From Climacium dendroides (Eukaryota; Streptophyta; Bryopsida; Hypnales; Climaciaceae), in assembly GCA_950106755.1 (NCBI GenBank), contig OX467088.1, forward strand, positions 2,464,001-2,528,000: a stretch of 64,000 nucleotides of DNA, given 5' to 3'. Within the stretch, counting starts at the first letter, position 1, and each line of letters starts with the position of its first letter. The notes below the pieces were generated by a model. It was not told where the DNA came from and did not search any database. It saw nothing but the letters and a program-made list of their open reading frames with translations. The position numbers and the translations under genes were made by a program. This document shows, piece after piece, positions 4,201 to 59,542 of the stretch.

Positions 4201-4282
4201 AACGATGAGGAGCAGCAACAACGAGGAGTAGGAGCAACGACGAGGAGCAGAAGCAGCGGAAAACAAACCCTAGTCGGAATGT

Positions 4283-7680: not shown

Positions 7681-7768
7681 ACCCTAAACCCCAAACCCTA
7701 AACCCTAAACCCTTAAACCCTAAATCCTAAACCCTTAAACCCTAAACCCTAAACCCTAAACCCTAAAG
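7681..7768 (-). repeat. Interstitial telomere-like CCCTAAA tract
   Basis: About twelve CCCTAAA-type units with variants (CCCCAAA, CCCTTAAA, CCTAAAT) in the same orientation as the tract at 2660. It is the longest telomere-like run in the window, flanked on both sides by AT-rich DNA. Confidence 0.92.
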
Positions 7769-11400: not shown

Positions 11401-11569
11401 TCCTATCCTAAACTTGAGCTACATATTTTGTGTTGATTGTAAATCTTTGAAGGTTAAGCTTTGTTGTTCAATCACTAAAAACTAACCTCTCATTTCTTTG
11501 ATTGTATATGTAGACATCAAAAGTTGAAACAAAGACATTGGAAGCTACTTGCAACTTCATGAAGCCAAA

Positions 11570-12160
11570 AATATGACTTACAAAAGTCATATTCCATAAA
11601 ATATGACTGACGAAAGTCGTATTCTACATTATTGCAAAATATGACTTACCTTAGTCATATTCCATGTCATCCAAAAATATGACTGACTGCAGTCATATTC
11701 CACGTCATTCAAAAATATGACTCACCTCAGTCATATTCCATATCATCAAAAAATATGACTCACTGCAGTCATATTTTACGTCATCCAAAAATATGACTAA
11801 CTGTAGTCATATTCCATGTCATTCAAAAATATGACTGACTGCAGTCATATTCCATGTCATAAAAAAATATGACTCACTGCAGTCATATTCCATGTCATAA
11901 AAAAATATGACTCACCGCAATCATATTCCATGTCATCGAAAAATATGACTCACCGTAGTCATATTCCATGTCATCAAAAAATATGACTCACCGTAGTCAT
12001 ATTTCACGTCATTCAAAAATATGACTGACCGTAGTCATATTCCACATCATCCAAAAATATGACTAACCGCAGTCATATTCCACGTCATCCAAAAATATGA
12101 CTGACTGTAGTCATATTCCATGTCATCCAAAATATGACTGACTATAGTCATATTCCACGT
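11570..12160. repeat. CACTA subterminal array of TATGACT...AGTCATA inverted-repeat units
   Basis: About fifteen units of roughly 38 bp each contain an inverted pair of the type ATATGACT-(6 bp)-AGTCATAT, separated by TCCATGTCATCAAAAA-like spacers. A shorter direct run, AATATGACTGCC, follows at about 12280-12350, and further TGACT/AGTCA motifs reach both TIRs. In En/Spm such subterminal motifs bind the element's TnpA protein, so a similar role is likely here. The array lies near the right end only. Confidence 0.85.
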
Positions 12161-13563: not shown

Positions 13564-15624
13564 TTGTCGTAGCACAGAGTAAGTAAATTCCCTGTTATAC
13601 CTTCAAAAATCACCCTAGAGCATAACAAAATGACCCTAAAGATCGAACCCACGAGATCCTGTGAAGTAACTAACTCTATTAAGGAGATAAACCCAATAAA
13701 ACCCCTCACTTCTACTTTCCGGTTGTACCTTGGAAAACCGGAATGTCCAAAACCCAACCGGAAAACTAAGACCGGATTGTATCCTATTTCCGGTTTTACT
13801 AGTTCCACGGTTTCTGGCCAACTTCTCAATTCTGGACCATTCTACTTCCGGTCCTAAGTGTCTACGGAGCGGATCTGTTCCGATCCACCCTTCCTAACCC
13901 CGGTTTAATTTTACCTCTGTTTTACCATCAGAGGGTTCGCCACTTGCTTTTGAAAGTGGTAGGCCCGCCACTCCTTCCGTGACTTATAGTGGCTGAAGAC
14001 CCACTCTCCTATTCACTGATCTTCTAACTAACAAGGATCCGGTTTGGTCCTTCACAGCAATCCGGATGGCAATCCGGATCACAGGTCACACAAAGACCCC
14101 CCATACGATCCTCTCATACTACAACGACTTTGATGCTGATCTGTTCTGTACAAATTTCGGTGGCTACAAGTGCACCCATCCGTTCCATCAACTACAGAAG
14201 TTCTTCCGTTTTACCCACAACGGGGGCAAGACCTCACAGGAGTCAAGACACTCGACCGGATTTCCCACCTAGGAGTTCTAGCGCAGCTAAGGAATCCCTC
14301 CCTATCCGCCTAGCCTAATCAACGGCTTTTTTACCTGGAATACTAAACTTCTACAGATGTTGAGGCATTGGAATCCACTTCTAGCTCTTCATGACCTACT
14401 CAGATGTACTTAGAACCGGAAACATTCATCAAAGGGAGAACTCTACCCACACATCCGTGCATACCACCTTACTTCAACTCTGTACATTCTTGCCAACACT
14501 CGAGAGGAATACACAAAACAAAGTTAATGGAAAGTACACAAGGAAATGCCAAAAGAGCTCTCTTCGCCTCCAACTCAGAGACTGTTTTATATACAAAAAG
14601 CAAAAAGTGAATACATGATTTTCGCCTCTGAAGGCGCTGACAATCCGGTCCTACCTTATCCTAACCGGATTCTATTCCGGTTCCTATTTATAAGTCCTAT
14701 TTTTACAATCCTTCCTGTTCCGTTTCATACACTCGGGATCCAATGGTAGGGCTCTCATCAGGTCTCTCCAATTGCTCGAAGACCTCAGTTAGATTCCGGT
14801 TCCGTTTTCCATCCGTAGGTAGAACCGGATGTTCTTCTTTAGCTTCCGGGGAGTCCAAATCTATCGGCTGATGTCCGGTCGAGGGTGTCTCCTTCTTTGC
14901 CCTGCTTGACTGGGGCGTCTTGTCCTTTCCCGGCTCCTGAGCTACGTCTTCCGGAAACAAGTCCGGAAGTGAAATCTCAGAGAGCCGGATCGGAATCTCC
15001 GTCAATTTCTGGCTGCTCTCCACGATCCGGTCCGCCGACTCCCGTGCTTTGGACAGGAGCTTCTCTATCTGCTCCTCAAAATCAGTGAGGATGTGCACCA
15101 CCCTGGTTCCGGATATCTTCTTGTCCTTGTGCACCTCCTCTTCGAACAGGCGCGCCTTGGTGACTGTGGCTCCGGGTCCTCCAAGCACGTCCTTCACTTC
15201 CGCGGCCAACTTCTTCATTTCCTCTGCCATCTCCTTTGTCGCGGTGGCGTTCTCAAGTAACGCGAATAGTTCGGCCTTGAGGGTATCCACCTCATCGTGC
15301 TGTCGCTTGCTGTCCTCCTTCATCTTCCGGAGCTCTTCCGGATTGATAACACTCTCAGCCACCTTCCGTGGCAACTGACTGTCCGGTTCCGCTTCGATTA
15401 ATTCCGCGATCTCCCCAAGCGTCCGCTTCTTAACTTCCCAATCCGCCCGGATTCCACAAAGGATCCCAACCAACTCGTCGAACGGATTTGCGGTCCCGGA
15501 TCCGGATGCCACATCCGGTCCGGTTGGAGTCTCACTTCTGTGCGGCCGCGGATGTCTCGGGGGCGTTCCTCGATTCCGAGCCGGTGTGGTCTTCTGCCTC
15601 TTGGCGGGAACATACGGTTCCTCC

Positions 15625-24655: not shown

Positions 24656-27110
24656 AGAGAGCATAATTAAGACGGCCATGACTACAAATATTGTTTGAGT
24701 AGATCATCTACTTCCATACGTTACTTATGTTGGCGGGCAACCAATACACAAATTAAATGTCCAAACAATAAATTGCACACCTAAAGCTATTCCCAACTTG
24801 AACCAAAACCAGAAAAAGTAATGTCAACATTCGTTTAACCATTCCAAGAGGAGACTATCCTGTTGAACGAGCAGTGCATTCAATATGCAGTAGTCCAACG
24901 TATCGACTAGCAGCCGACACTTGCAACCAAGCACTAGATCGAACGAGTGGCGTCCTGGTGTAACAACTCCATAGGCCAAAAGTGTGTTATCGGCTGGCAG
25001 CCGATAAGCCATAAAATCCTGTTGTTGCTAATCATCTCCCTCGTCGTCCGCATCTCTATCCAAAGCAGCGCCCGTTGCCTCTAGATTGGCAATTGCAGCA
25101 GCAACTGAGGTCTCTGAGATAACATGAGATGTGGGAGGTCCCTTCTTTGCATGCGAAGGCATTCTGTGAGAATACAAGACAATGTTGACATGAACCATCT
25201 ACGGAAGACAGAGTTCCTTGTGCCATCTCCGTGTCCAGCACTCCCTCGCCACCAGAGCTTTTCCCTCCCTCTTGGCTTCCATTGGAGTCCACCACTCTAT
25301 CTTAAAATTCCCGAACGTCGGGCTAGGAGTCATGTCCACACGCTCGAGTACCTGCCCGAGCCAAACAGGCAGGTAATTGTTGTGACATGGTCGACACAAA
25401 ACAAAGTCTTCCAGCAGAACATCTCTGAATGGATTGAAAGCCAACCTTGGCCTATCCTTGGCAGGTCCGCAATATGGAGTGGGATTTGCTTCGTCCTCCG
25501 GAGTAGTGTCCATTGGATTATCTGGATCCCCGTTGTCCTTTGTAGGAACGGCTACATGATCTCTTTTCCAGTCCGAGAGCAGCCATAATCCTTCTTGAAG
25601 CAATATTAGATTTCGGGGCAGCGGCAAATTCATCTCCGACTGAATTCTTTTCCAGTAAGCCACACACCCTGCCATTTCCTGTGCATATCGCTTGTCTCTG
25701 GCCATTCCCGATTTCCAGAACTCAATATACTTTGCTATTCCATTCTTGATGAATGTTTGTTTCTCACTACATTCGGTAGCCCTTGCAACTTCCTTCTCTA
25801 CGTTTCGCCTTCTCGAATTTATGTCCACATTCCCCCAGAGTGGCTTGAAAGGCACCGGTCTTGGATCCCCCTGTGGAATTTTGGGTCTCCCATCCTTGTG
25901 CGCCATCCACATTTTGACAGGCGGCCTAGGAGGCATCCACGAGGAATCCGTCGCCCTAATCTTGTACCTTATGACCGGCCATCCTTGATCATGTCTGGCG
26001 TTGATGACATAGAATTTAAAGAGGTGCTTATCCCCGAGCCCGACTATTTCGTTGACCCCATCATGATGGAAGCCCTTGAAATATGACTTGAAGTCGGCCA
26101 CCTCCTGTATGAACTCCGGAATGAAGGCTACAGTCTTCTGTAAATCCATGAACGCCTTCATGAGATCTACAAGTACATATGTGTTTTTTCTTTTGATGAG
26201 TTTTGAGAGATAGCTGAAGTGCGCGTCAATGTCTTCGTGTATATACTCGACAATGAGAAAGCCAACAGTGACTTCTTTGAATATACGCCTGGCGGTGAGT
26301 AATGAGCCGAATGCCATGAGGAACCTATTTTTATTGTCCTTCGTTGAGTTATCGAGCTGCAAGAATAGTTTTTTTGGAAGTGGCACATGAGGTCGTCTTA
26401 ATGTTGGAGTGTTTGTGAGTATTCTCGATGCCTCCGGAATGGACGAGATGCATACTTGATTTTCCATGAAGCAGGGCCTCAAAAAAGTTGTTTTGCGGTG
26501 GAGTCGCAAAGAGAATCTTTGATTCTCGGACAGGTGGCTTTTTGAGAGCTCTGAGTACCCTACATAGCGAGGATATTGTGAAATTTGAATCCCTAGGCCA
26601 GAGTGAAGTGGAGTAATGAGCATACGTGCCGTCTCCATGTCCATGAGTGAGCATACCTGTACACGAGATTGGTATCTGCCCAAACCCGACGGTTGCCTTC
26701 GTAATGCGTTGCATCCTTGGAATAGCTGTCTTTGTAGTGTCCATTTTGTCATGAATAATGCAGAGGAACTCTGATGGATTTTGCACGGATTGCGCAATCC
26801 ATCCGCTGTAGACATTTCTACAAGCGCGTTGGTAATTGAGATGTCTCTCTCTGTCGTCGACGAGGGCCTGCCATTCATCACATCCTTAGGGATACTTTGC
26901 AATGAACTCTACCAAGAAGTTACATTCTGTGCATTTTGAGAAATTGCTCCCAATCACTTTGACCTCTACGTTTTTGAAATGAACTTTCTGAAAGCAACTG
27001 ATTGCAGACTGCGAGACCGGCTTCATATTGCATATTCCATTGACCTAATGGACAAACCTCGATGGATGAGACTCCGAGAGAGAAGAAACAATTGTATCGG
27101 ACGCCAGCCG
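24509..27110. repeat. Palindrome family E (4 copies around DUF7869-type copy 2)
   Basis: One perfect palindrome with an odd centre, TATCGGCTGGCAGCCGATA (about 24988-25006), plus three diverged copies at about 24509-24527, 24897-24915 and 27089-27109. All lie just outside the coding part of the decayed minus-strand transposase gene (three on its 3' side, one on its 5' side). Four copies are too few to be certain they form a functional set, but the core does not occur elsewhere that I can see. Confidence 0.6.
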
Positions 27111-38108: not shown

Positions 38109-38118
38109 CTAGAGTTCC

Positions 38119-38180
38119 GGGGAATGCTGGTATGCGAGCGTAGAGCACAGAGCGTAGAATATAGAACGTGGAGCATGGAT
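38119..38180 (+). repeat. Left terminal inverted repeat of MULE D
   Basis: Begins GGGGAATGCTGGTATGCGAG and continues GCGTAGAGCACAGAGCGTAG, then GTGGAGCATGGATTT. It pairs with 53632-53693 on the opposite strand, equal in register over the first 30 bp with about 10 mismatches, mainly in the outermost 8. Confidence 0.8.
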
Positions 38181-39508
38181 TTCTAAATTTTTAAAAAGAA
38201 ATTTTGGTATAACATATGATAAAGTAGTTAAAAAGTGGATGAAAGAGTAGACCAAAAAGTGGACGAGGGTTTAGGGTGGATGAAAAAGTGGATGAAAAAG
38301 TGGAAGAAAGATGATGAATAATGTCAGAAGTTGGATGAAAATTAGGAAAGTGGATGAAAAAGTAGATGAAAAATGGATTACGCTGGTACTAGTGTGTATA
38401 GTGGATTACGGTTTAGGGTGAGCTTCTACATTTAAAGCGTAGGAAAAACTTAGAAGAACTTGAATAAAAGTTGGATTAAAGCTAGTAAAAATGGATGAAG
38501 GATGAGTTGAAAACTGTTAAATATTTAGGATAAAATAAGATGGAGTTCATAGAAGAAATAGTTGAAGGGTAGGATGGAAAAAGGTGATGAAAGGAATGGA
38601 TGGAAGAAGTAGAAGGGAACAAAGGATGAAAAAAATGGATGATACAAGTATAAAAAAGAGTTATTAAAAAAATATATTACATGAAATGGAGTAGAAAGGA
38701 TGTATTGTAGAGAAATAATCTCATTCAACCTCTAATGATGCAAGAGAGATTGAAGGTTCAGGTTTTGTGGGAATAACTTCCTCTATGACCGTGGAAGTGC
38801 AGTGGGTTCGACCACCGTGGCATTAGGGATTAGGTAAAACATTTGAGATTGGATTTTACGGACTACAACATATACGTAGACTCTTACAGAATATAACAAC
38901 GGGTCACGAGTGCTTGGAACAAGTTTAGAGTATGTAGTTTTGGGCACAAAATTTAGGGCATGATAACAGAAGAAGGTATGTTGAAGAGTTCTGTACTGTG
39001 CAATTCAATACTATGGCATTGAGCAATTGTGGAAACCCCCGCAGAAAACGGAATTCAAGTTAATATTGAAACTATATTCTTCTGTCAATTTCAACCCTGT
39101 GGTAATCTTAATTAATTAGCCACTAAGTTAGTAGCATAAAAACATGCCATTTTGTTCTGTTTGCAAACGAATTTTAATGTCATATCAAGCAATATATGGA
39201 TTGGGAATTACTAGCAACATAAACCCATAGTAATTAATTATCAAACATGAAAATTGTGGAGTGGAACTTTAGTTTAAGCACAAGTGAAAAAGACGATTTA
39301 GTAATCACAGGAGCAGACATGGTCTCCCAATATATAGCAAGTGACTTGCCCAAGCATGAAGGAAAGTATACTGTGTATAAGTGGCTTCCAACTTCACTTG
39401 TAAGAAACTGTAGGAAGGATTAACGACAAACGAAAAATGCCCAGAATTGTAAGTTTTATAACCATGTGTTGAAAACACCAAGAACCCTACATGATCAGTT
39501 GAGACATA
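38181..39508. other. Left non-coding part of MULE D
   Basis: From about 38230 to 38700 degenerate GTGGATGAAAAA units give strong purine bias on the plus strand. The rest has no open frame of note. It is the 3' flank of gene D and may contain its terminator. Confidence 0.5.
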
Positions 39509-42500
39509 CTATGCCGAAATCGAACTGCCCTCACTGTCTGATGCCTGTAAATCTGACTGTATTGCGAATTCATCTATAAAGTTAAGAGCACGTGGGTCAA
39601 CTAGGTGGGCCCTAGCACGTGGTTTAGGATTCAGGGCAACAAATTCGTGAGCCACTGCATCAACATACACGGGAAGAGTAAATGGCTTCGGTGGAAGAAA
39701 GGGACATTGGCTGCAGTTGTTACGTTGTGGGCTTGCCTGAAAAACCAAGTTATCCACATGTAAGTCGGATGGTTAGAAATTGATGTATTGATGACATGCG
39801 AAGAGGAAAACAGTCACAAGATGACTTACTTACGGAATCTAGTAGTCTTCACAATAGCTTGGATGGGAACTTCGTCTTCATCCATATCGACTGGTACATT
39901 AGCTGGTTTAGGTGGGTTAGGGCTGGGATCGACGACCGTGCGCATCATTGGAGCAATAAGTGCATCAAAAATAGCCTTATCCTCCTCGAATGCAAGAATA
40001 TGTCGCAGTGTGGCACGGCAAGCTTTGATGGTTGCACCTGAAGACATGAAATAAGTCCAAGGAAGTGGACAAAGGAAAAACCACCAAGTGCTTTAATTCA
40101 TGATCATGACAGTGACAAGTTTATACCAAAGTACCTGTAGCGGCTGTGCAATCGACCACAACGTCCCCTGGTTTGCTGCATGCTTCCACAAGCATCTGCA
40201 TGAATTCTCGAGATTTCTCTCGAGGTCCTCTCCATAGTATATCTCCATTCATGGTAACATCATTCTTGTTGCAGAAATTCTGCAGAATGTCATTCTTACC
40301 CACATTAATACCCACAGCATCGTGGGATTCCACGTATTGGAAGGGGTAGTCATCCTCGGACTTTGGTCCGTTCTCTTTTACAACGAGAGCTATGGAGAAC
40401 CGCATAGTCTGCAACAACCAAGAAGTGAGGATTAAACACTATTTTAGGAAATCATTAAAGCACCCATAGAAGACTTGGGGAAATACATTACCGTCTTAGT
40501 GTTGTCTGCTAGAGACGTTAGATGAAGGCGGTTCATGCCGAACCATGTCCGTAGTATCTTGAATTTGTATCCTTGGCAACAACCAAGGAGTTGGCTTCTG
40601 TGGGCACGAGAGAGGGCGGGATATATTATGAGAAGACCTCCATAGTCATGGAGGTATGCTTCGGCAAAGTCAAAGATTGGCACTAACCAATCATCTGCAA
40701 ACACGTTCCACTTTGGTATAGGTGCAGGAGGAGTTGAAAGTGTGGGAATATGAAGGCCTTCAAGAACATCCACGATGACCAAGTCCACTGCAGCCTCACG
40801 CTTCAAGACTCCATTGAAGAAGCGTTGTTTGTCACTCGAATGCTGTAGGAAAACATGAGGGATAAGTAGAAACACAATATAGGCACATAGAACTTCAAAA
40901 GGGAGTTGATGAAATTGCAGTAGTATGTGAATGATAAAAAGAATTTATAAATGATGGTCTTGCTTGAAACGTACCATTGAAAGGAACGCATTCACGTCAT
41001 CAAATGCTTTCTTCTGACTTGGTAAAGCGGACAACGACAGGTTCAATATGCACTCGTCTACATCATGAACAGGGTAGTGAGAGGACGGAGTGAGCCCGTG
41101 GACCAAGTGCTCTTGAGTAAGCGAAAAGCCTGATGACCCTTCTTTCACCTCAGCTGCACTTGTAGCTGGTTCTGGGTTTGCGGTTTCGGCCTTCCTCTTG
41201 GTCCCCTTCTTTTTACCCTTCTCTTGGGCCTTCTCAGATTGGGTGGCCTGTCGCTTCTTTCTAATGTCGTCGGACTTCCTCTGTGCTTCTTTAAGCTTCT
41301 CTAGCTTCTTCCTATCAGAGACCTCCCGCCTTTGGATGCATCTTGCTCGCATCTCTGGATCAAGATGAGCAAACTCGTCAAACTCAGCATCAACAGTAGC
41401 GGCATCCTTCAAGGTCTGGAATAGAGCCTCCTCATTTGGCGGAGTAGTCCCAAAGATGCACTCTATATACCAAGGACACGCTTGCAGATGTGGACTTGTC
41501 CACTTTGTCAACTGCATGGGAGAAAACATGCAGTCCGGAGAAGACCGATCTAACCAAGTAGTCAAAAACGGTGGTAAATCTGCCTTCGCAATTGCCTTCT
41601 TGTTGTATAACTCAAACTTGAAATACCTGCGTCCAATGCAGGATTAGTTAGCTACCTTTATAAGAAGAAGTGATTGTACAATAAACAAGGCCCAAGGACA
41701 ATGCATTGGACCCTCCAAATATGATTACAGCATGGTTGTACGGAAGAGCCGCAATGCCATAAGAACTCCTACACAAGGTTAGACACCTGTAAATCACATG
41801 CTTCACAACTAGCGCCAACCCTCTGAAATCCTTGAAGCTGTCTGACTTCTTGAAGGAGTCAGCACCCTTGAAAACACCGGTGAAAGCAATATCCCAAAGC
41901 TTCATCCTCCAACTCTCAATGTACTCAATCAGTGTCATTGGTTCGCTTGGAACGCTCATATTGATTGGAATATTGTCAGCTCGAATGATTGATTCAAACA
42001 TGTCGTTGGCTGATTCTTCAATCTGAAGAAGTAAATGTAAACACATTGAGGCCAAGTTGTGCAACACAGAATGTGAAATAGTAATGCATTAAATACAATA
42101 ATGAAACCATGAGATATAACCCTTACCCCAGCATACCAGCACGCCCTAGCAAGAAATTGAGTCAACCTCTCCTCATTCACAGGACGAGGTGGAAATCGGC
42201 GAGCCTCACGGGAGGGACCAGAAGCATTCATCCACTTAAGCCACCTGACTTTTAATTCTGGAGACACGTTGGCTGTTGCAATCAACTGTAACTTTTCTAG
42301 AGTCAACTCGAGAACAGCAAAAAGGCTCCAATGTCGCTCTATCTGTATCAAGAAAATGATAAGGCATCGTCAGTGAAGAAGAGACAAATGGATGAAGAGC
42401 AAAAAGCTGAACCAATGGTTTCGTGAAAATACCTCTTTCAACCAGTCAAGTCCCAATGCCGGATTTGCAACGGCTACAATCTTCGAGAGCTTCTTGTATA

Positions 42501-45500
42501 GCTTCTCCGTAGAATCCTTAATTGATGCCCTCATAGCCAGGGCAACACCCTCTCTTGTAACCTCATCTTCAGGCGTATCCTCATGATACTTTCGGACTGC
42601 CGCATCAGCAGTTGTGGCTATCTCTTGTTGTTCAAACATGGGGGAAGCCACATAAGTATTCAATAGAACAAATGATACTAACATGGAGTGCTTCATGAAA
42701 GTTCAATATGAGTTAGTGTTACTGATCACATCCATACCTTAAAAATAAACGATGTGAAGACATCCAAGGGCATAGATTACCACAACTTTCGTGTATTCTG
42801 TTGACATTTTGCCTTCTCCTCAAGACTCAGCAATTCATGAAATTTCTCAAGCTCAAGTAATCCATACTTCTGAACGCGGTAGAGTGTATGAACCAGGTTG
42901 GTTTTGACATGCGAGTTCTCGGTATGCCTGCAGTAAATAATAATTTAGGATGCACCTGAGAAGTAACTCCAGGAAATAGAGCATTGTTCAAGAAACGTAT
43001 TCTGATAGGTGACGGCAAACGATGACAATGAGGTTGGTGTAAACTCACTTGTTAATATCGTGCATTGCTTACATTGCAACTCCAATTCGATGCCTTGTGT
43101 CTAGGACTATTGAGTCTACACAAATGTGCCATTCACGATCTGCTTTGTGGAGGCGCTCAATGTGATTCATCCAGGCGATTTGTCTATGATTCCCATCGCA
43201 GACAAAAAACTTGTAGTCCACCAAATGCTTGAGGACAGTATGCTCAAGCTTCTCGTTGAATTCATCATTCACTGCATTCCATGTAGGTCCCCATTCTTTC
43301 TTCTCAGCATCGGTAAAGACTGCCATCGCACCCGCCTCATTCGATACTGAGACATAGAAGACTCTTGCGCCCTCCTCATATCCCCGACTGAATTGGTTCT
43401 CCAACAACGTCAAATCGCACGAGAATGTAGGCCGTACCATAGGCATTGGAATTAGACGATATAAAGGTATCTTCAATCTTGATTGGTCATTGGATGTCAA
43501 TCTCAAGCTATGAATGATGGACACAATGTCCATCGTCTGCGACTTCCGAATTTCGTCTTCCATGTAGTGCGGTTGAACCCCAGGAATTGAAATCTCCAAG
43601 GCTTCACCGTCGTCATCCTCCTCGACACCCCTAGGTGCAAGAGCCCTAGCAGTCATAGATAATGCTCTTGGTGGGGATTTCTGGGATGCAGGCTCCTGTG
43701 TATTCAAAAAGACAATGGAGTTGCAATTGTCATATGAATTTCACATACAGATACATTGAGAAATATATTGGAATGTTCATTTGAAAAGGACATCATGATT
43801 ATCAATCTGAATGATTTAGAATGGAATATTATAGAGAGATCAATTTATGTAGTTAACATCATCAAACACATGTCCACAAACCACACTCTCTAGTGAAAAT
43901 AATGTATCTCCCAAATCAATATTGGATGATATCCTCTGGGGTAGTAAGCCTAGATGACACATCATCTGTGAATACAAGTTCCTGGTCCCCGAATCCAACG
44001 GACGTGCAGCATGACTCTGAAGAACCCGACAACCCCAAACTCTGCAGGTCATCTACTCCCTCATTGAGTTTGCGAATCAGATTCTGAAGATCGTATGGTA
44101 CCCTTGGCTGCTTTTCTCGGAGATGAATGTCGGCATCTATATCTGGGACTTGAATCTCCACGGCCGCAAGATTAGGATCTTGCACATTCTGAACTTCAAC
44201 AACGTTCTCATGACATTCAACCTGGAGATGGAAATAATTAGAACACTTATATAAGATGAACAAAAAATATTCACAACAAATTGATTAAGAAACTAGGATT
44301 CCAGAACATTCGGTGAAAGGAGACAAATTATAACAGGCTGACAGCGCATGGGAGCCGAGTCAGCATAATTGAGCTACCAGGTCACTAGCACGGGCAAGAG
44401 TTAACCGTGACTAAAAACTCATGCTTGGCCCGAACCTTGTCGGTGGAGTCTCGATCCCGAGAGAGCGATTTGCGGTGCAATACCATGCACGATATGGTGT
44501 ACTGTATTATGCAAGCCTAAAACCCCTAATCTGTAAAAGCTAAATTCTTGAAATTCCCAACTCGGTACAAACGAAAACAAGATGCTAGAGGAGTGATGAA
44601 AGATTTTGTTTCCATTAATCATGCATGGACCCAAGCGGTCAGATTTTATCTCGGTCCCGAGAAAGTGATTCTGAATGACGAGATGTGCATGATTTCGGTG
44701 AACCCACGGAGTGTACAAGTAGGCAAGCTACAGGTATTCATGCTAAGATATCTATGCTTGGCCTGAACCTTGGAGGTGCCGTCCTGGTTCCGAGAGAGAG
44801 ATCTGGGCTGGGACGGCATGTACGATTTCTTTTATTGTAATATGCAAGCTTATACCTCGGCAGGTCAATCGTCGTCAGGGTAAGTAATCATGCATGGCAC
44901 CGACCTTCCAGGTGTTCTCTCGATCCCGAGAGAGTGTCATTGAATGACGATGCATGCATGATTTTGAATAGGATCCCATTGATGTCCTAAATGTAAAGTC
45001 TCGGGATCCCATATTTGATGAGGGATACAAACCCTATGTACTGAGGAAGGGGTGGATGGAGAACTCTTGATTCGGTGAACCCTCAGAGATTACAAGAGAT
45101 CATGCTACAGGTAAGCCTTCTCCAGGTAAGACAGCTAAGAAATCTATGCCTGGCGCAAACCCTATCGATGCCGTGTCGGTCCCGAGAGAGGGATTCGGGG
45201 AAAGATGCCGAGCACGATTTGTTGAACTGAATTATGCAACCCTATACCTCGGCAGGGCAACTAATCATGGCAGATCTCAGCAGGGCACCTTATCATGCAT
45301 GGCACCAAGCTTCCAACATTGACCCTATATTCACGAATGTACTGATGGCGTAGAAACGGAAGGAATATGTTGGAGGAGTCATTAATCATGCATGGACCCG
45401 ACCTGTCAGGGGTTCTCTCGGTCCCGAGAGAGTTCTTTTGAATGAGGAGGCATGCATGATCCCGCTGATGCCCTAAACAAAAAATTTCGGGCTCCCAAAT

Positions 45501-46334
45501 TTGATCAGGGACCCTAAACCCTATTATCAGATTCAACGCACGCGAGGGGCGGAAGGAGAACACTTGATTCGGTGAACCCTGTCGGAATACACGGAATCAT
45601 ACTGCCAGTAAGCCTTCTAGGATCCTGTAGGCTGGTAAATGTATGCTTGGCTGGAACCTTGTCGGTGCCGTCTCGGTCCCGAGAGAAGGATCCAGGGTGC
45701 GACGCCGTGCACAATTTGTTGCACTGCATTACGCAAGCCTAAACCTAGGGAGGGCATACCTCGGCAGGGCAGACCTCGGTAGAGACCCTAAATTCACGAA
45801 TGTACTGACGGCGTAGAAACGGAAGAAACATGTTGGAGGAGTCATTAATCATGCATGGCTCCGAGTTGTCAGGGGTTCTCTCGGTCCCGAGAGAGTTCTT
45901 TTGAATGAGGAGGCATGCATGATCCCGCTGATGCCCTAAACAAAAATTTCGGGCTCCCAGATTTAATCAGGGACCCTAATCCCTATTTTCTGATTCAACG
46001 CAAGTGAGGGGCGGAAGGAGAGCACTTGATTCGGTGAACGCTGTCGGTCTACACGGAAACATGCTACAGGTAAACAAGCTATGAAATTCATGCAGGAACC
46101 CCGTCCCTCGAGTGACACTGAAGCATTCTGGTGGTACCGTAGTTATGAAAGAGGTTTAGGGTTCTAGGCATGACAAACCGTGTCAATCCGGAGTTGTATG
46201 AGGCTAGTATAGTCGACATGCAAGTATGTTGTGCTTCAACGTACCTGGGCTACGGCGGTGGCGCTTTCTTGCGCAAGTGGTAGCACAGTATTGTCTCCAG
46301 CTTGATTTCTTCTCGGACGCAGAACTCGATCCAT
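39509..46334 (-). CDS. Gene D: ParB-like plus DNA-methyltransferase-like protein of MULE D (about 12 exons)
   Basis: Exons (minus strand): 46334-46245 (ATG, MDRVLRPRRNQAG), 44221-~43.95k, 43695-43073, 42927-42781, ~42.68k-42433, 42342-42127, 42022-41787, 41626-40975, 40842-40492, 40408-40135, 40037-~39.83k, 39736-39509 (stop after GSSISA). GT-AG sites are visible at nearly all junctions and phases agree at exons 1/2, 3/4, 5/6, 6/7, 7/8, 8/9, 9/10 and 10/11. Junctions 2/3, 4/5 and 11/12 are unresolved. Product about 1,200 residues. Exon 3 has KFFVCDGNHRQIAWM, a ParB/Srx-like DGxHR motif. Exon 8 is Lys-rich (KKGTKRKAE). Exon 9 has DLVIVDVLEGL where permuted N4/N6 methylases have DPPY. Exons 10-11 have PGDVVVDCTAATG then ATIKAC...ILAFEED, like motif I (DPFAGSGTT) and motif II. 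Likely a nuclear, DNA-interacting protein; enzymatic activity is doubtful. It shows no stop codons within exons. Confidence 0.75.
44440..46060. promoter_or_regulatory. Palindrome family D array in intron 1 of gene D
   Basis: Copies of CTCTCGGTCCCGAGAG and variants (CTCGATCCCGAG) are centred near 44455, 44655, 44788, 44925, 45181, 45422, 45678 and 45886. They sit in a higher-order tandem repeat of about 465 bp: 45320-45585 and 45785-46050 match closely, including CATGCATGGACCC, GGCATGCATGATCCCGCTGA and GATTCAACGCA blocks. The array lies between exon 1 (46245) and exon 2 (44221), and upstream of the divergent transposase gene. A role as target sites of an element-encoded protein is inference. 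Confidence 0.8.
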
Positions 46335-47732
46335 TACTGAAGACCTTGGAGAAACACAAAATTGCCTCCACACGTCAGGAATCCATGAATACCTCATAAC
46401 ACTCTATATCGGAATAAGTTAGTGAAGTGGACACAGAAAGTTAGGGATGTCCTACCAGATTAACCTTCGCGGACGCCGATGCGGGAATCACAACCGCAGC
46501 GTCAACTGTGTAGACAGGGCAAGTCGACGACCCGAGGACGAAATGGCTGCGGAGTTGCTCCCCAGCAAGGTATGGTATCGCGCTCCCTTTCTGGATTAGG
46601 GTTGACGGCGGGATGCTGTATTTTTCTGGGATGTACGGTCCAGACTATGTAGGGAAGTACGGTTTTGAACTATGGCCAGAACAACGGTTCGGTTGGAACT
46701 ACGTTTGGGTCTATGGTTGCATCAAAGGGTATTAGCCTACATCTTTAGTGATCCATATTCCTACCTCACCTACCTCTCTTTACACCTCGCTTCGCATTCA
46801 ATGGATTATCAATTTGTAGATTGTATGTTATGAGTTGAAATCCTAATTAATTATGTCCCTATATTGTGGATCATTTCTTCAATAGGATCGAATAGTATTC
46901 GTCGGCTGAGGGTTTTCATTATACTTTGAGCTTCACAATAGTGAGCAATTAAATTTCATTACAAGAAATATCAGTTGGTATCTATTCTAAATATGATGTT
47001 TTTAGGTATGTAGTCTCTATAAAAATTCAGTCACTTTAAATATTCTGTAGTACTTGTTCTCGGGCCAAGCTTTTCTATAGAGTAGGGAGGATAGTATATA
47101 TTTGCTTATTTCATGCACTCATTATTGGTAGTAAGTACCATTGTTTGATTACAGCACATATTATAGTTATTTGCTCACAGTCCTAGGAGGGGTACAATCT
47201 TGGAAACGAAGTGAAGTAACCTTGTATAAGTCTAATATAAGATTTATCTGCATATCTTAAAAATCCTCCATAATTGCGATATCATTTACAATATCCCTTA
47301 TTATTACTTGATGGATGACTTAGATTATGGTTAGTGTGTTCGTTTACGTATTACGGTCAAATTCTTTTTGGAAATGTTAATGATTCTGAAGAATCTAGAG
47401 ATTTGATTTCACTGTGCTAAGTGGATTGTGCTTCTTTACTACAGAAGCCTCTCATATATATCACTGTACTAAGGGAATACTTACACAGACCTATCTGACA
47501 TGTATTAACGGTATACCCAATACATTCAATGGCCTATTTAATCTTTGTTCTCCTAACAATTTGTGTGCCGCCGTTTTCATACTATATTGTACTTCTTGAG
47601 TTACTACTAGTATTCAGTATTTACATGTTGTATTTATTGCATTTCATTCCAGGCCTGATTTTGAATGTGTTATTCAGAGCCTTTCAATACTTCTACGCTA
47701 ATGTTCTGTATGAAATATAGTCTTCGGTTATA
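46335..47732. other. Divergent intergenic region of MULE D
   Basis: About 1.4 kb separates the start of gene D from the start of the transposase open frame. It must hold both promoters. No palindromes of family D were found in it and I could not call a TATA box with confidence. Confidence 0.5.
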
Positions 47733-50700
47733 GTGTTATTTCGCCCTTGGAATTTACAACCTCAAGAGTCTCAGGAAGGATGCATTGCTTTGACTGATAG
47801 CATGACAGGATCTTCAATGGCAATTGTGAGGACACATGGAGAGTGTGTTCCGATCTCATTTCCTGTGGGCGAGTTGGGATATGCTGTTGTTAGTTCGTCT
47901 CGATTGAGTGCCCGTTTCCAACTTGTGGAGAACTCATTAGATATTGACGAAGAAGTATTTGATAGTATAAGTGGTGACTTGACGCATACTATAGGGCAAG
48001 AGCCCTCTATGTGTGGCCCTGTTAGGCAATGGCATTTGCGTGAAGGTAGGTATTTAACATATGGATTACCGCAGTCCTGTCCAAGAGCCTCCAATGCAGA
48101 GGGATCCGCTAGAGTTTCTAGGACTAGTACTTTCGAGAATACTGTGAAAATTGAGTCTGGTGTGGAGGTGATTACCATTGGAAGTGATGACTCTGATGGT
48201 TCATCTCCACCCTGCAAACTTCTGAAACCGACATCCTTGTCTGCAGTTGGTAGAGCGTACTCATCCTTCTCGCCTTCTACAGATACAGTGACACCATCAT
48301 CATCATCCCGTGCGTCTTCAATTGTTTCATGTTTGCAGAAGTTGTGCCACACAAAAGGTTCCAGGAACCCGTTCAAGAGGGTCAATTGGAACTCAATTAG
48401 AATATGTAGTGTTCAATTTGTTCTACCTTCATTCAATGGCGATGTGATTTTTGAGTTACCACCCGTCAGAGATGTTTCGGGAACTCACAGTCAGGCTAAG
48501 CTTCTCATTGGAATGGAGAAACGCTATGATGGTCACGTTTGGACAAATCTTCATACAACAAATATAAAAAATATAGACGGCCTGACATTTCGGTTGGCGT
48601 CTTGCGTGGGCCACCTACAATGTGTCAACCCGAGTTGTGACTATCTAACTCGAAAGCACCGTGTAGCTCTCATCAACGAGACTGAATGGGATGGTTGTTC
48701 TCCTGTTCCATTTGAGGTTCATGATATTCCTCCAGTTGGTTCCACTATCACATGCAAAATTTGTTCAATTGCTCCATCGGGTATTGGTAGTTGTCCTACG
48801 AAAATCTATTATGTAGTTGGGTCACAGGACATGACTCGGGCTTGTGTTCATTTCGGTATTCACAACCACCCTGTGAAAGATGGAGATTGTCAGGACTCCA
48901 AGGAGAGAACTCGGTCTTTGATATCAGACCAAGTTGAGCGGAACCCGTCTGGAACAAATTCCGCTATCGTCCTAGAGGCTAGCAAGGAATTCCTTGGAGA
49001 GATGCTACTTTGACCCAAAGGAACTACACCTACCGTATTTGGTCTCCAGGAATTGATGCCGGTTCTGGAGAAATGCAAATTCATGAGTTCTCCAAGTATT
49101 CGCAATGAAGTAAGTACGTTCAAGTACTTCCGGCGCTTTGGAGTCATGGACAGCATCACAAAGCTTCGTAGTTGTAGCAATTGGGCTTTTGTGCAGGAGA
49201 ACAGATTTCCTGGTCAGGAATCCAACTCTGACAAAGTACTTGTGTTCAAAATGTCCGAGGTTGGCCCTGGAAGTGGCGTGGACTTGGTATCGCGTATGCA
49301 ACCTGGTGGTGACCTTGAGGACGTATGGATCATGTTTGATCATGTTAGGCGAGTGAAGCTCTGGACTACAATTGCGTGTCATGTTTATGACACGACATAT
49401 TGCCGTGTCATGACTATTGCAGTTAGTGATATGCAGTCAGAAGATGTAGTTGCCCAATGCGACTTCTGGAAAAACCTAAACGTTGTGATGGGTAGACATG
49501 GACATACCTTGCCCTATTTTAAGGGCTTCATGGCTGATTCGGCACAAGCAAACTGGAATGCAGTGCGCATAGTTTATGGAAGTGGTGACCCAACCGAGCC
49601 CATGCCCAATCGAAAACGTACATGTTTATTTCATTGGACTCAGTCAATGGAGAAACACACGAAAGCAGACATTCGCATTGACCTTCAAGACCAGCATCGG
49701 AAGCTATGCAAATAATATAAGGATGCAAATTCTTTAGCAGAGGCAGAGACTAGGTTTCATGCAATTCGAACGTGGTGGCATTCATCCGGAGCCACAACCG
49801 GGGAGGGGCTTCGCCGTTTGGAGCTGTGGTTAGCGTTTTGGCACTTCCGGTATAGGCAATGGGGAGCATTCATAGACACTATAAGATTCTTGATCACTGT
49901 ATCCGTCGTTTCTTTGTTTTTCAGGATATGGTTCTTGTTGCTGTCTTATCTTCTATCATTGCTAATAAATTATTTGTTTTATGCTTTTTATCTTTAGTTT
50001 CTCGAGTACTTCATATAACAACCCTAATCGTAGACCTTAAACCCAGGAAATATAGTAGTAGCTTTAATCCATGCTCTATGGAACAGGGACTCACTGAAGA
50101 TGAACTTGGATTCATTCCTACTTGCAACCTCGCGGAGACCGTCCATAACAAATGGTTGCAACAATCTGGAAAACGTGGCACTGATTTGTACGTCGCCACC
50201 GTAGATGACTATGTTCGAGCGTTCATGCAAATGGTTAGATATTACCAGTTCCTAAAAGGTGAGAAGCCGGGAACTGGTCCAGGAAAAGAAGAACTATTGC
50301 TTCGTGTAGCACAAAGATATGCCCAACGTACCGGTAATCCGAAAGGATTGAACGATGCCATGGCATCTGTACCAGGTGTCAATGAGTATTGCACTAGGAA
50401 GCCCCATTTGGAAGGCGAGGAAGTTTTTGGATCTGAGAAGCGAATGCCAAATCTTCCTTCTGGTTCTAAATATGACTCGCATCGTCCTGACAAAGTGAAT
50501 TTCTCCCGACCCCGGGTTGGAACGAGGGCCACCCCTGCACCCACACCAGTCATTTCCTTGGATCGCATTTCTGAAGAACCATGGCTTGTGACGCATGAAG
50601 ATCATCCGGATTTGTTGGAGTCACCTAAGACTAGGTCAATTCCTGCAACTGAGGTGGTCTCCCAAGTGAGGACCGTCCAAGAAACAGTTTGTGATGAGTC

Positions 50701-51553
50701 TCAATGGCATATTGCCCGCTTGCCTAAGACGTCTTCGAAGGCATGTTTTGCATTGCAGGCCATTACGCGAAAAAAGTGTGTAGCTAAAATAGTGCAAGGC
50801 AATAGGGGAACAGCTGCACCTACATACACCGGCAGCATGGACAACTACAAGAAAAATAGGATTGAGAGAATGCAATTTTTTTTCTGCAATGATGATATAT
50901 CGCAGTGCGTCAAAGGTTCTCGGCGGAAATGGGTTCTATCAAAACCGGTAGTACCAGATATTTGGCCGGTGCAACTTGGAACCAATCTTACACCCAAAGA
51001 GATACTAGATCTTCAAAATGCAGGGTTCCGTCTTCCGCAGCGTCTTGCCATTTCCCCTCGTAGGCTATTTGGAAATCATGATTTGCCCCCTGATGATTTG
51101 GGACTTCAAATTCCAGAGTCACCCGCAGAACACCCCAGCACACGGTCAAGAAAGAAGATTCGGAGGAATCCAAAAGCACCTACAACAAAGCAAGCAAACA
51201 ATTGCGCCTCCGCACTCACAATGAAAGTAGTGGTTCATGAAGTTACTATGGTACCGCATCCGGGCTTTGGATGCATCATTGCACTGAACTCAGGTACACC
51301 GCCTGCCATTCAACATTACATGATCACTGTAAGTGCATTTCCTGAATGCACTTGCCCTTATTTCAAGGACATGTCAACAAAGGCTTTAGGAAAAAGAGGG
51401 CAATGGGCTAATTGTAAGCACTTGTACTTTTTGTTCACTGGAGTTTGCCAATTGGATGCAGAAGTAGATCTTTTTATTCATGCTCCAAGCTTTAGCTTTA
51501 ACGAAGTGAAACGCATACTTCAGAGTGGTATCTTGAAGCTGAAATCCAATTAG
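47733..51553 (+). pseudogene. MULE transposase with SWIM zinc finger, element D
   Basis: One frame runs 47733-49715 with a single TGA at 49011, then TAA at 49713, and continues in frame to about 49890. After a probable intron or shift the rest is open from about 50000 to 51553. The N-terminus is Ser-rich. A Cys/His cluster (CVGHLQCVNPSCDYL, about 48604-48648) resembles MULE N-terminal zinc binding. The catalytic core has IMFDHVRRVKLWTTIACHVYD (first Asp, about 49330), FMADSAQANW (second Asp, about 49530) and RTCLFHWTQSMEKH. The C-terminus carries a SWIM finger: CTCPYF, then NCKHLYFLF (51345-51432). Order and spacing are those of MULE transposases. The two stops are compatible with CGA to TGA and CAA to TAA. 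No homologous intact copy is present in the window. Confidence 0.8.
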
Positions 51554-51915
51554 TACATAGTTATCCTTCAAAACGGTTGGCACTAGCATATTGCAATGTA
51601 CCTTTGGATGATGTGCTCCAAACTTGATTCACGTAAGAATTGTAGTGAGACTAAAAGGGCCACTACTTCATTTCAATTGTCATTTGTCCATTGCACCTTG
51701 CACTATTATGCATTCGTGCATGATTGCCCATCCACGCTCTCTAGTATGATTTGTATATATCTCTGGATATAAAATATTCATAGAGGGTTGTTTAGATTGT
51801 TATTGATAATTGCAACAAAATAAAATGGCCTTCCCTCGTCCCAATCCACTAAAAATGACCTTGCCTGAATTCCCTTTTCACAATGAATGGAGTAGGACAA
51901 CGGCAAACTTTTAAA

Positions 51916-51985
51916 TGCTTAAGGTGACCACCTCTAAGGTTCCTCTCGGTACTGAGAAGTAACCTAGAGGTGGTCACCTTAGGCA
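51916..51985. repeat. Foldback hairpin downstream of the MULE transposase
   Basis: Arms TGCTTAAGGTGACCACCTCT and its complement (AGAGGTGGTCACCTTAGGCA) form about 25 bp of stem with one or two mismatches around a 19-nt loop. The loop holds CTCTCGGTACTGAG, close to the family-D palindrome core. It is located 360 bp after the transposase stop. It could be a small inverted-repeat insertion, a transcript 3'-end structure or a small-RNA source. Confidence 0.8.
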
Positions 51986-51993
51986 TTCAAAAT

Positions 51994-53631
51994 TCTGCAA
52001 CATTTATCTGAACTTGCTATGGTTGTAAACCCATTTTTTATTAGCACTATCTCATGCTAGCATTGGTAGAAGTTAGCTTCCCTTGCAATACATATGAGTA
52101 CTAATTATTGATGACATGATTGCAAACATAATTGAAATGCATTATTATCAATAGGAAGTTTGGCAACATGCTAATGCCTTTTATATGATAAATTGGTAAA
52201 GTGGTCGCGCATGGATGAACTTAATTAATCATTTTTACCCTATCACATGGAAATGATAGCCTAATTCCAAGCCTTCTAACTACAGTTGTTCAGTAGTTTA
52301 AGTTAAATTGTTCACCTGACCATACATTTAACAATACAATAAGCAAATGTCCATCCAGCAAAAGAAAGTTATTCTAAACCCTAAATATAATCCTCCTAAA
52401 AAATTTAACAGATATTCTATAAACAGGCCATGAAGGCAATCATAAATACCCTAAACCTTGAACCCTCACCCAAGAAGTATGCCTTTCTTTCACCTTTAAA
52501 GGAGCAGTTCTACTAGTTCACAATCTGAGGTCCACAATTTGAGGTCCACAATTACATTGAGATCTTAAAACCACAGCTATAGGAGCACACCTAAACCCTA
52601 AAACCGTGGTGAAAGGTTATGTTATATGGCTTGATACCACGGTTATAGGTTCACACCCAAATAATATTTTTGGTGTAGATTTCGGGTCTCCTGTCTTGGA
52701 TCCACGGTGATAGGTCCATTTTCACGGTCATGGGGGCATGAATATAAAGTCATCATGTTCTACTTTGTAAAACTTTGAAAGGCCAATCCTTGAAGAAAAC
52801 AAACTCCTTTCTCCCTTCCATGCCGTTGATCTGGATATGGGTAGGGATACTATACACAGACAAATACGATATAATATAGACCCGATCCGGATACGAGAAT
52901 CAAGATATAGTTCAAATACAATACAAATATAGTACGGTACAGATATGAGATACGGAATATAGTTCAAATGCAATATAAATACAATACAATGTAGATACAA
53001 AATATGAGGTACGGATATGGATATATCCCATATCAAATGTTACCCCTAGCCCCACCTGAAAATTAGAGAAGGGGGGGAGAGGGGGAAACGAGAAATTTAA
53101 TATACCAAAAATTTGAGCTTATTGCCTTATTGGTGGGAGGTAGAAAAATTCAATTTCATTTTTTTTTTGGGAGTGGATAGTGAGACATTCTCACTATCCA
53201 CTCGAAAGATAGGCCACTAAGCTTTGGCACATGAACCAATAAATTGATATAGCATTAAAAGACCGATCCCCTACATATATTGGTTTGTCATAATCCCACC
53301 GTAGAGGTGTCCAATGTCATTGTTGAAGTTACTCACCAACAATAACAAATAATTCTTCTAAGTTCAATCAATATAACCCTTCCCTCCATGTGGTCAATGG
53401 TCATAAAATATTTTCACACATATTCAAATGTTAGTCCACCCTAAACTTTTGAGGTTAGACTTTTTAAATCCCCAAATTTTTAGACTGGATTTTTTATTAC
53501 CCCCAAAGTATGTTGATTTATGGAAAAAGGGCCCAAAACTTATAGTCGATTTTTGAAAGTAAACACCCAAATTTAACAAAATAAATAAATAAATAAATTT
53601 CTACCGCACCAAATTACAGAAAAAGGCCCTA
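51994..53631. other. Right non-coding part of MULE D
   Basis: No gene. It contains scattered CCCTAAA-like words (52590), degenerate ATACAATACAAATATAG units at about 52855-53035, and a perfect hairpin at 53171-53203. Confidence 0.5.
53171..53203. repeat. Perfect 15-bp-arm hairpin
   Basis: GAGTGGATAGTGAGA, a three-base CAT loop, then TCTCACTATCCACTC. It lies about 490 bp inside the right end of MULE D, next to a T10 run. No homologous partner elsewhere was noticed. Confidence 0.85.
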
Positions 53632-53693
53632 AATCCATGCTCCATGCTCCAATTCCACGCTCTACGCTCTACGCTCGTATACTAGCTTCGTTG
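53632..53693 (-). repeat. Right terminal inverted repeat of MULE D
   Basis: Reading inward on the minus strand it begins CAACGAAGCTAGTATACGAG and continues GCGTAGAGCGTAGAGCGTGG, then GGAGCATGGAGCATGGATTT. The right target duplication CTAGAGTTCC follows at 53694-53703. Confidence 0.8.
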
Positions 53694-53703
53694 CTAGAGT
53701 TCC

Positions 53704-56644: not shown

Positions 56645-59542
56645 TCATGTATATGAAGCCAAACTCTGGTTGATGATTTCGATTTGAACTGTAGGGATCT
56701 TGATTCTGCATTGGCGAGTACCTCTTCTGTTTTGAGACTTCCATGCTGTAATTAAAGCATTTGTTGTCTCCCACGCAGGTTCTTCGGTTTCATCAACCCT
56801 CCAAAGCAAACCTCTATCACTATCCCATCCTTCATAGAAGTCTTGAACTTCTTGATTGCGTGATGTTGGCCGAAAGTATTGAATGTGCACACAGTTTGGT
56901 TTCTCGGGGTTAGAGTTTGGATCAGACAATGCTTTGGCAATCCAAACTGGTCTGCTGTCACCGTCTGCAGGACGAACTGCAACAAAATGCCCTTCGTATA
57001 CATCTCGAGCAACCCTAAAGGATGGTTGTGGACGATCCCTCAAGGGCCCAACATAAGGCTCATCTTCTCCATGCTCTTCGAGATCTTCACCATCTTCGTC
57101 TAAATGATCAGCTTCTGTCACTTGAATACGAGTAGTTGGCTAGAAACCGTCTTTTAGAGCACTAGAAGTAGGAAGTGGCTCTTGAAGAGTTGCCTTTACA
57201 CCACGCCAATAGCGCACCACATTCTCATAGCGCCTACGATGTTCTCCACTCACGTCTGCTCTGCACAAGTCGTCCCAATAGTTTATGAATCCTGATAAAC
57301 CTTTGACAATGTCATTGACACCTTTCATTGGGTTGAGTGGTACTGGCAAGGCACACCACGTGGCCACAGACTCCGTCTTTCATCGTCTTCTTTCCACAAC
57401 TTAATGGCTTGACCGTGCCTGCCTAACCAGTTTTCATCCGTGCACTTCAACTTGTACTTCATGACTGGGCATCCAACAGAGTCTAGGTAGAACTTCACTT
57501 GTTGCGGTCTTGTGTGTCCCACAAGGATTTCATCACCATCCATCCATTTTCCTGCAATGAAACGCTTGAAATCAGGCACCTCCTCTATGAGGTGAGGGAT
57601 AGTAGGAATAGACTCAACATCCATGAATGACCTCATGAGCGCCGGGATTGTTAGAAAGTTCTCCTTCTTCAACAGCATGCTCCATCTTCCAAACAATGCG
57701 TCAATGTCGTCGTGTGTGTGACCAACAATCATGAAGTTGACATACACTTCTCTGAAGATCTTGTTAGCAACAAGTAGAGATCAGAAACAGAAAACATATC
57801 TATTCTTGTCGCCGCTGATGGCATTGTCCATTTGCACATTCAAAATAGGAGGCAAAGGCACTGCTGGAACTGCATTCATTGGAGGTGGTGGCAGTGACGC
57901 GTCGCACATTTCTTTACCCTACAGCACTGCCCTGAACAAATTTGAAGACCCTGACCCAGAAAATAATTGCCGAGAAGAAGACTTCGATGGCAATTCCAGA
58001 TCCCGCAACAACTTTGCCATAGAACCAATTGTATAGTTTGAATCGTGTTTAAAGAGATCCAAACCATAATGTGCGTAACGCACATCTCCATGACCATGAG
58101 CAATCATGCCAGTGACAGACACAGGCAATTTCACAAGGCCATCAAGCTCCTTACTCCTGTGGGAAAAGACTGGAGAAGCAGTCTTTGCATGATCCATCTT
58201 GTCGTGCATAACTGTGAGGCATTCGTGTGGAAAAGCTACTGAACGGTGACGGTTTGCATAATACAACTCCCGATGAGCTCGAGCAATCTCATTGTGCCTA
58301 TCCAACTTCCGAGAATACTTCAATTCATTGTGAGACCCACTTATAGCACCCTTCTTGAGGTCTTGCAATTTGTCACACGTGCCACATCACGCAAAATTGT
58401 CTCCAAGTTTCTTCACCTCATACTCAGGGAACTTACAGCACCTAATCTTACTTAAGTTCAAAGCTGACACCTCACTTAGTCCAAAAACAACATTGACATC
58501 ATTGAGTTCTTTCATCTTACCCTTCCACTGGAAGGTGGAAGGTAGGATCTTGGCCACAACTTTCTCTCCTGACTTCAGGGTCTTCGTACGATGAGGCATG
58601 TGATCTGCCTCTTTCTCCAGAATGCACTTCAATGTTGCTATAGCTTGTTGAGTGTGTTTCCTTGGTTTCACCGTTCCCTTATTGCCATGGTCCTTTGCCT
58701 CTCGACTACGCCTCATGTACGATTGGTAGCGATAGAATGTGGCCTCAGGGACCCCAGCTATATGCATCCACGCTCGCATACATACCGGTGTATTGTCAAT
58801 TGACACCATTCGTCTACCACGCTCGTCAACATGCACTTGCCTATGCACATCCATTTTCATGTAGGTCCTATGTTTGAACGTGGAGTTGTGATACATGCGT
58901 TCACGAAAGGCTCGAATCTTATCCCTAGGAAATGGCTGAACACAGTTGCGACTACAACATATTTTAGTAGACACTGCATGGATGGAATCTTGAGTAAGCA
59001 ACTCCTTCGATTTCAAATTTGTTTCACGGGGCGCATTTCGGACCATATTTGTGTATGGTCTCGAAGACTTTGAAGAGGGCGGATTTAAGAGAGCTTGTTG
59101 GAGACAATTGAATTTGTCCCTAGCCTCATGGTCTCTAAGGCTAGCTCCACGACAGTGGACAAGATGAATAGGCCAAGCCAACAATGAGCACACCTGTTCC
59201 TCTAGTAGGTCCTCTTCGCTATGTGTTTTGGAGATGTGGATCACCACGTGGGTGTCACCAAGAGGGCCATTGGCACCCAAAATGAGGTCAGAGTTCACAC
59301 TATGACAGACACCTTCACCCACAAGCACTCCAGCCTCATTGTACAAGGTGACAACTCGAGTATTCCAAAGCCGACGCGGTAGACCTTCGCATTCCGGGAC
59401 CCCAACATTCATTGCTTCGACATTCTGAAATTCGTCTTCTGAAGATGCCATAAAATCCTCTTCATCATGTCTGAATTCACTGGATTCAGAACCCGATGAC
59501 ATGTCCATGTCATCAGGGTCATCTATAGTATCCATGGATACC
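56645..59542 (-). pseudogene. DUF7869-type transposase-like gene, copy 3 (nearly full length)
   Basis: After an acceptor (TTTTTACAG) the exon opens at 59542, with ATG at 59535 (MDTIDDPDDMDMSSGSES). Residues from ECEGLPRRLW to HCRGASLRDH form the DUF8039-like domain. Next come ICCSRNCVQPFPRDK, a GVPEATFYRY helix and CGTCDKLQDL. The acidic triad follows: HDKMDHAK (about 58200), QMDN (about 57830) and GHTHDDIDALF (about 57720-57690). A 330-residue C-terminal part ends NQSLASYT at 56645. Four premature stops lie in otherwise continuous frame: at about 58388 (R in copy 1), about 57918 (Q likely), about 57785 (W) and about 57140 (W). There is also one small frameshift near 57350. All four stops are C-to-T or G-to-A type. 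It is the best template for the family in this window; a DDD/E nuclease is inferred. Confidence 0.8.

Follow-up and report, generated by a model that had tools for sequence, protein, structure and literature searches.

The window analysed here, a stretch of 64,000 nucleotides of Climacium dendroides (C37:2464001-2528000), contains a single DNA transposon of 15.6 kb at positions 38119-53693, in which a transposase gene (T, plus strand) and an accessory gene (D, minus strand) diverge from each other. This is the layout that a sequence-only reading of the window had proposed, together with matching terminal repeats and a perfect target site duplication, and both were found. The 10-bp duplication CTAGAGTTCC flanks the element without mismatch on its two sides (38109-38118 and 53694-53703), and the terminal inverted repeats, of ~61 bp, align over 61 columns with a score of 68; when the first 120 bases were shuffled 300 times, no score exceeded 23. 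The window copy is decayed and dead, with two in-frame stops in D and two in T. Its features, in window positions, are listed below.

38109..38118, unstranded: left target site duplication, CTAGAGTTCC, same as the right copy
38119..38182, plus strand: left terminal inverted repeat, about 64 bp, the terminus matched in six of seven other copies checked
39826..46334, minus strand: gene D, ParB-like/methylase-like, 11 exons; dynamic-programming model corrected by hand and from relatives
46334-46245, 44221-43976, 43695-43049, 42927-42738, minus strand: exons 1-4 of D, the donor of exon 2 uncertain
42621-42433, 42342-42127, 42022-41787, 41626-40975, minus strand: exons 5-8 of D
40842-40492, 40408-40135, 40037-39826, minus strand: exons 9-11 of D, the end of exon 11 uncertain
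43049..43695, minus strand: exon 3 of D, predicted ParB/Srx-fold domain with a CDGNHR motif; in-frame TAA at 43069-43071
42738..42927, minus strand: exon 4 of D; in-frame TAA at 42777-42779
39826..40842, minus strand: exons 9-11 of D, beta-class N6/N4 DNA methylase-like by Pfam profile, motif IV DVLE
44380..46075, unstranded: array of eight diverged units in intron 1 of D, seven of them with the dyad TCTCGGTCCCGAGA
44450, 44650, 44783, 44919, 45175, 45417, 45672, 45880, unstranded: positions of the array units
47721..51553, plus strand: transposase T, open blocks 47721-49010, 49014-49712, 49716-49994 and 50087-51553
51903..51998, unstranded: inverted repeat of 96 bp, near-perfect, located downstream of T and centred on CTCTCGGTACTGAGA
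53631..53693, minus strand: right terminal inverted repeat, pairing with the left terminus
53694..53703, unstranded: right target site duplication, CTAGAGTTCC, same as the left copy

T is broken by an in-frame TGA (49011-49013) and an in-frame TAA (49713-49715), and its intron ends near 50086, the start of this intron being uncertain. Candidate D-D-E motifs (DTTY, ADSAQAN, CLFH and NLAET, read by eye) follow one another in T, and a SWIM-like C-x-C...C-x-H motif (CTCPYF...ANCKHLYF, also by eye) is located near its end. Pfam gave no family at cutoff for the T pieces (one stray Glucodextran_B, E 0.2) and, even with E allowed up to 1, nothing for a T relative that is open over 1259 codons, and the single-sequence fold of a T piece has a pLDDT of 34; the missing profile match may reflect low profile sensitivity. 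Target site duplications of MULEs measure 8-11, usually 9-10 bp (table in PMC6446971), a range that includes the 10 bp found in the window and in six of seven other copies. Together with the terminal inverted repeats, which many MULE groups have, and the motifs read by eye, this length points to a MULE-like identity, and the element is called MULE-like rather than MULE because no MULE transposase profile matches it.

The divergent gene had been noticed for exons that join in phase, and after border correction all 10 junctions of D do lie in one frame, giving 1100 codons plus a stop (1101 in all). Three exon borders were corrected from relatives, namely relatives of exon 3 and the relative P0105, in which exon 3, intron and exon 4 follow in this order. 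The ends of exons 3 and 4 and the start of exon 5 given by the first model were dropped, as the relatives show later ends, and with them two in-frame stops, a TAA at 43071-43069 in exon 3 and another at 42779-42777 in exon 4. Uncertainty concerns the end of exon 2, with candidates at 44102, 43976 or 43961, and the last exon, which may splice on towards 39510.

The ParB-like and methylase-like parts suspected in D were borne out by the fold and profile searches that the sequence-only reading had recommended. Exon 3 is predicted to adopt a ParB/Srx fold: its AlphaFold model has a pLDDT of 80, and the best 12 rows of a search against solved structures are all ParB, Noc, KorB or sulfiredoxin, at matches that are weak in themselves (best Foldseek E 0.057; VIA Z under 8). 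A BFVD search returned mostly ParB-like names, also at weak E (0.014 at best, the first row being named L-ectoine synthase). Within this domain, the CDGNHR motif keeps at least 90% of letters per column in 121 sequences. Exon 3 alone gave 136 matches with E at or below 1. A query made of most of D (residues 140-1040) found nothing with E at or below 0.01 in the 7994 candidates scored, and searches of the viral_contigs and genome_contigs sets yielded no relative. A second ParB-like gene, read by eye at 34679-33498 from its INGQHS motif, was rejected, with an hhalign probability of 0.2 against exon 3 of D.

The joined exons 9-11 match Pfam N6_N4_Mtase (PF01555) with 32.4 bits (E=1.2e-7, cutoff 26.7) in an alignment that covers residues 173-234 only, and five PHROG methyltransferase families match the methylase part at E below 1e-3. 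Motif IV of beta-class enzymes is normally DPPY, SPPY or NPPF. In D it reads DVLE in the window and DVPE in the two other copies read, A95 and B69 (described below), so that the catalytic pattern (D/N/S)PP(Y/F/W) is absent from all three. Motif I is altered too, being DCTAATGAT in the window and DCAAATGST in B69. Because of the change in motif IV, this part is named a methylase-like domain and not an active methylase, and the departure from DPPY weakens the idea of DNA modification.

Elsewhere in the window, two elements with DUF7869 proteins lie at 57325-58386 and 25202-26908 (Pfam E 4.7e-20 and 1.9e-27), the former with diverged copies in other parts of the window. The plant telomere repeat, AAACCCT or its complement, forms short interstitial arrays at 2658, 7681, 23664 and 61349. 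Rfam and tRNA scans of the window found none.

Other copies were sought in the host genome (412,615,100 bases in 123 contigs), from which 29 loci were fetched besides the window's own. The ends were checked in seven close copies (L003-L009) picked from the closest D matches, a terminus being accepted at no more than five substitutions per 22 bases. Six of the seven have matching termini, each flanked by its own, different, perfect 10-bp duplication (CTCTTGCTAT, TACGTTACAA, ATTTTAAGTG, ATATTAAAGG, CATTCCTTGG and GTCTCTTAGT). Five of these complete copies hold a 600-bp stretch of T at 97-98% identity, and the sixth (L037, L003, L038) contains element positions 9511-14663, all of T included, at 92.9% identity. 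T and D therefore lie between the same ends in six of the seven copies, making seven independent insertions with that of the window, and they move together as one mobile unit. Whether the two genes belong to separate elements, a possibility raised with the sequence-only reading, was examined in these same copies, and the six hold both. In the seventh (L004, on C41), neither ends nor T were found at the expected places, and there is no complete element. Another close copy, A95 (L031 and L032), is truncated: its match to the element is confined to 2178-9677, and of T it has only the first 25 residues.

D has further relatives in the genome. A search with exon 3 gave 963 candidate places, and all of the 150 that were scored match. 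The first 30 rows show 75-100% identity and nine of them have no stops, a count that includes the window's own row, the query ending just before its stop. Further groups among the 150 scored lie at 66-69% and at about 50% identity; all 10 rows at 69% are without stops, several with identical scores, as are many rows of the ~51% group (for example C40:2199175-2199750). Eight very similar exon 3 copies (L017-L024), in both orientations and with one or two TAG stops each, are found within 0.7 Mb at C38:16094767-16785332, a local amplification. Between the window and B69, a member of the 69% family, pN and pS are 0.19 and 0.76 for exon 3, 0.25 and 0.85 for exon 8, and 0.21 and 0.73 for exon 9; the coding sequence of D is thus conserved between two families (pN 0.19-0.25, pS 0.73-0.85).

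The locus of B69 (L033-L036, G000:C1:7383489-7406488) is arranged in another way. Its D, in L033 and L034, is followed 3′ and on the same strand by the T relative open over 1259 codons (L035:712-4488), 84-93% identical to T. On the right side stands a terminus that shares all 22 of 22 bases with the left terminus of the window element and that falls inside the ORF of a third T, 45-48% identical; no T was found between D and this terminus, and the left end and duplication were looked for and not found. The evidence that T and D move together thus comes from the close copies and does not extend to the 69% family, where no T was found between D and the right terminus and no left end.

Intron 1 of D (44222-46244) houses the array, which is located between the coding parts of T and D. 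The 14-bp dyad TCTCGGTCCCGAGA is present within two mismatches in seven of the eight units, the unit at 44783 being more diverged, and at this tolerance the window has the 14-mer nowhere but in these seven units and at the centre, 51944, of the hairpin downstream of T. Boxes resembling CATGCATG are centred 32 bp on either side of the dyad, ~three helical turns away by hand count, and both are exact in three of the eight units. Over the eight units, the commonest letter per column reaches 0.85-0.93 in the core and 0.89 in the left box, compared with 0.44-0.53 beyond 70 bp. Symmetric pairs are kept at offsets 1-6 in six to eight units and at offsets 28-33 in four to eight, where about two are expected, and the CpG positions common to at least four units are only the two steps of the dyad (in seven and eight units). 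Palindromes as such are not rare in the window: 27 centres have at least 25 of 45 symmetric pairs, and only one of the eight units is among them. Single units have 14-26 of 45 pairs against a random mean of 11.5 (sd 3.2), which leaves the weakest within chance.

The dyad accompanies D in other copies. It lies within 1.5 kb of exon 3 at 27 of 30 loci (26 of 29 without the window's own) and is absent from this vicinity at the other three, counts in which L017-L024 are not independent since they sit in one 0.7-Mb cluster; L002-L030 together contain 84 dyads, 45 of them exact. In B69, which is 69% identical in exon 3 and whose DNA aligns by blastn with the D half of the element only in blocks covering exons 3-11, seven dyads stand 5′ of exon 3. 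Five of them are exact, and four of these stand in a 107-bp tandem array without the outer CATGCATG boxes. This array is presumed to be intronic, and two further dyads, TCTCGGTGCCGAGA, lie beyond the 3′ end of D. Whether the array of B69 is new or has turned over, the dyad is what persists. The hairpin at 51903-51998, with a centre (TCTCGGTACTGAGA) that resembles the array dyad, is 95.5% identical in L035 and matches with one arm only in L038; a role as binding site or as small-RNA hairpin is conceivable.

Accessory genes of this class are known. In Ectocarpus, Sola1-1_Ec32 encodes, on the strand opposite to its transposase, a protein of 1104 residues with ParB-like and N4/N6 methyltransferase domains, and similar proteins are cited from green and red algal transposons, the red algal source being cited also for giant EnSpm elements without specifying which element bears the protein (PMC12477816). 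As far as the published description goes, both cases have the two domains joined in a single protein (1104 residues in Ectocarpus, 1100 codons for D), encoded antisense to the transposase of the giant DNA transposon that carries it. The Climacium element differs by its 10-bp duplications and SWIM-like transposase, and the parts of the description available make no mention of a site array or a change in motif IV; the proteins themselves are compared by description only (PMC12477816). A bacterial counterpart, Bce_0392 of Bacillus cereus, likewise has a ParB domain fused to a DNA methylase, with adenine methylase and nicking activities reported (PMC5512222), whereas D is spliced, its middle part is long and its motif IV is altered. 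DNMT retrotransposons of Symbiodinium and Klebsormidium also carry a DNA methylation gene, but as C5 cytosine methylases they represent another enzyme and another element class (PMC5890265). As to MULEs, the words ParB and methyltransferase occur zero times in the main text of a MULE-group survey (PMC6446971), and no MULE with a ParB-methylase cargo was found in the open-access papers searched, though one may still be in print. The sequence-only reading knew of no described MULE with this cargo; the cargo class as such is known from Sola1-1 and the cited algal transposons, and what look new are the MULE-like carrier, the altered methylase motif and the dyad array.

The other point of reference is the VANDAL family of MULEs, invoked in the sequence-only reading for its VANC proteins. 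These bind a short motif that has accumulated as tandem repeats in noncoding parts, introns of accessory genes included, with an effect that extends across the element (PMC5735166, PMC10398659); VANC21 motifs, for instance, are tandemly repeated in introns of two genes, VANC21 and VANB21, and also ahead of VANA21 on its upstream side (PMC5735166). A MULE-type element, an accessory gene and short motifs repeated in tandem in noncoding DNA, here in the first intron of D, are common to both, which supports the analogy at the level of layout. It ends with the molecules: D has ParB/Srx and methylase-like domains, its motif is a 14-bp palindrome and not YAGTATTAY, and anti-silencing is only proposed for it.

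Finding this VANC-like layout together with a ParB-type protein leads us to suggest that the array is read by D itself. The transposon spread as a large MULE-like element with divergent genes, the transposase T and an accessory D that is a ParB-methylase fusion; the D protein would recognise the TCTCGGTCCCGAGA repeats in its own first intron and, bound there, would act on the chromatin and transcription of the element. The most likely effect would be to relieve its own family of silencing, like VANC, the alternative being autoregulation of T and D. The methylase part would then serve as a SAM-sensing or structural module, not as a standard methylase. To this reading, in which D binds its own dyads and thereby counters silencing or regulates T and D, we give an even chance. 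We infer from the layout that D is the binder and that its binding would counter silencing; T or a host factor could bind the dyad instead. Bacterial ParB proteins load as clamps onto parS sites, which are palindromic, and then slide, and such sliding would provide a means of spreading along the element. A bolder and distinctly more tentative version is that the ParB-pseudomethylase loads on the TCTCGGTCCCGAGA dyads of the intron, spreads like a clamp and keeps the element unsilenced, as a eukaryotic ParB/parS-like system.

D might instead have methylase activity, on N4 of cytosine or N6 of adenine, and so mark the DNA of its own element; the ParB part would choose the sequence, and the mark would keep the element open or hide it from 5mC silencing. 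For such proteins, the Ectocarpus study puts forward binding to, and modification of, the transposon that encodes them (PMC12477816), the Pfam score of D is above cutoff, and the motif I stretch of B69 retains, by eye, G-x-T and later acidic residues; set against this, DVPE in A95 and B69 and DVLE in the window, with motif I altered as well, make an active enzyme rather unlikely. A role in transposition is another possibility that we rate as low: D would be a co-factor, or the dyads would be sites of T, with D or T bridging dyads and ends, or the ParB domain of D would nick DNA or bind nucleotide during transposition. Such a role would fit the joint travel of T and D in six complete copies and the nicking reported for the ParB domain of the bacterial ParB-methylase (PMC5512222), but the array is internal and not at the ends, and B69 has dyads and D with no T between D and the right terminus.

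The array could also be a host regulatory or RNA feature unrelated to D, made of RY-type CATGCATG boxes bound by B3 proteins or of pre-mRNA hairpins. The CATGCATG boxes resemble RY elements, the array is inside an intron, and the 96-bp inverted repeat downstream of T has a similar centre; since B69 keeps the core dyad and not the outer boxes, this seems improbable. Least credible of all is that D was captured, from the host or from a bacterium, and rides along without a role, as a passenger of the Pack-MULE type. MULEs do tend to acquire host gene fragments (PMC6446971) and the window copy is broken by two stops, yet there are 150 scored relatives, all 10 rows at 69% have no stops in exon 3, the coding sequence is conserved between families, and the same cargo class occurs in unrelated transposons. 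A random hitchhiker was rejected on conservation, copy number and shared insertions.

Should the clamp-like version of self-recognition by D be true, it would amount to a second, independently evolved anti-silencing mechanism of the VANC type, with a known physical route of spreading. ParB-methylase accessory genes are known from several unrelated algal transposons, for which the relevant passages name no target (PMC12477816), and in Climacium a candidate target is visible. It is the dyad array in D's own intron, with a core that outlasts its surroundings, which brings the question of what these proteins bind within direct reach of a gel shift. A logic shared with VANC, an accessory protein plus a motif amplified in tandem, but in another protein family, would suggest that sequence-specific self-recognition is a general anti-silencing route of large DNA transposons.
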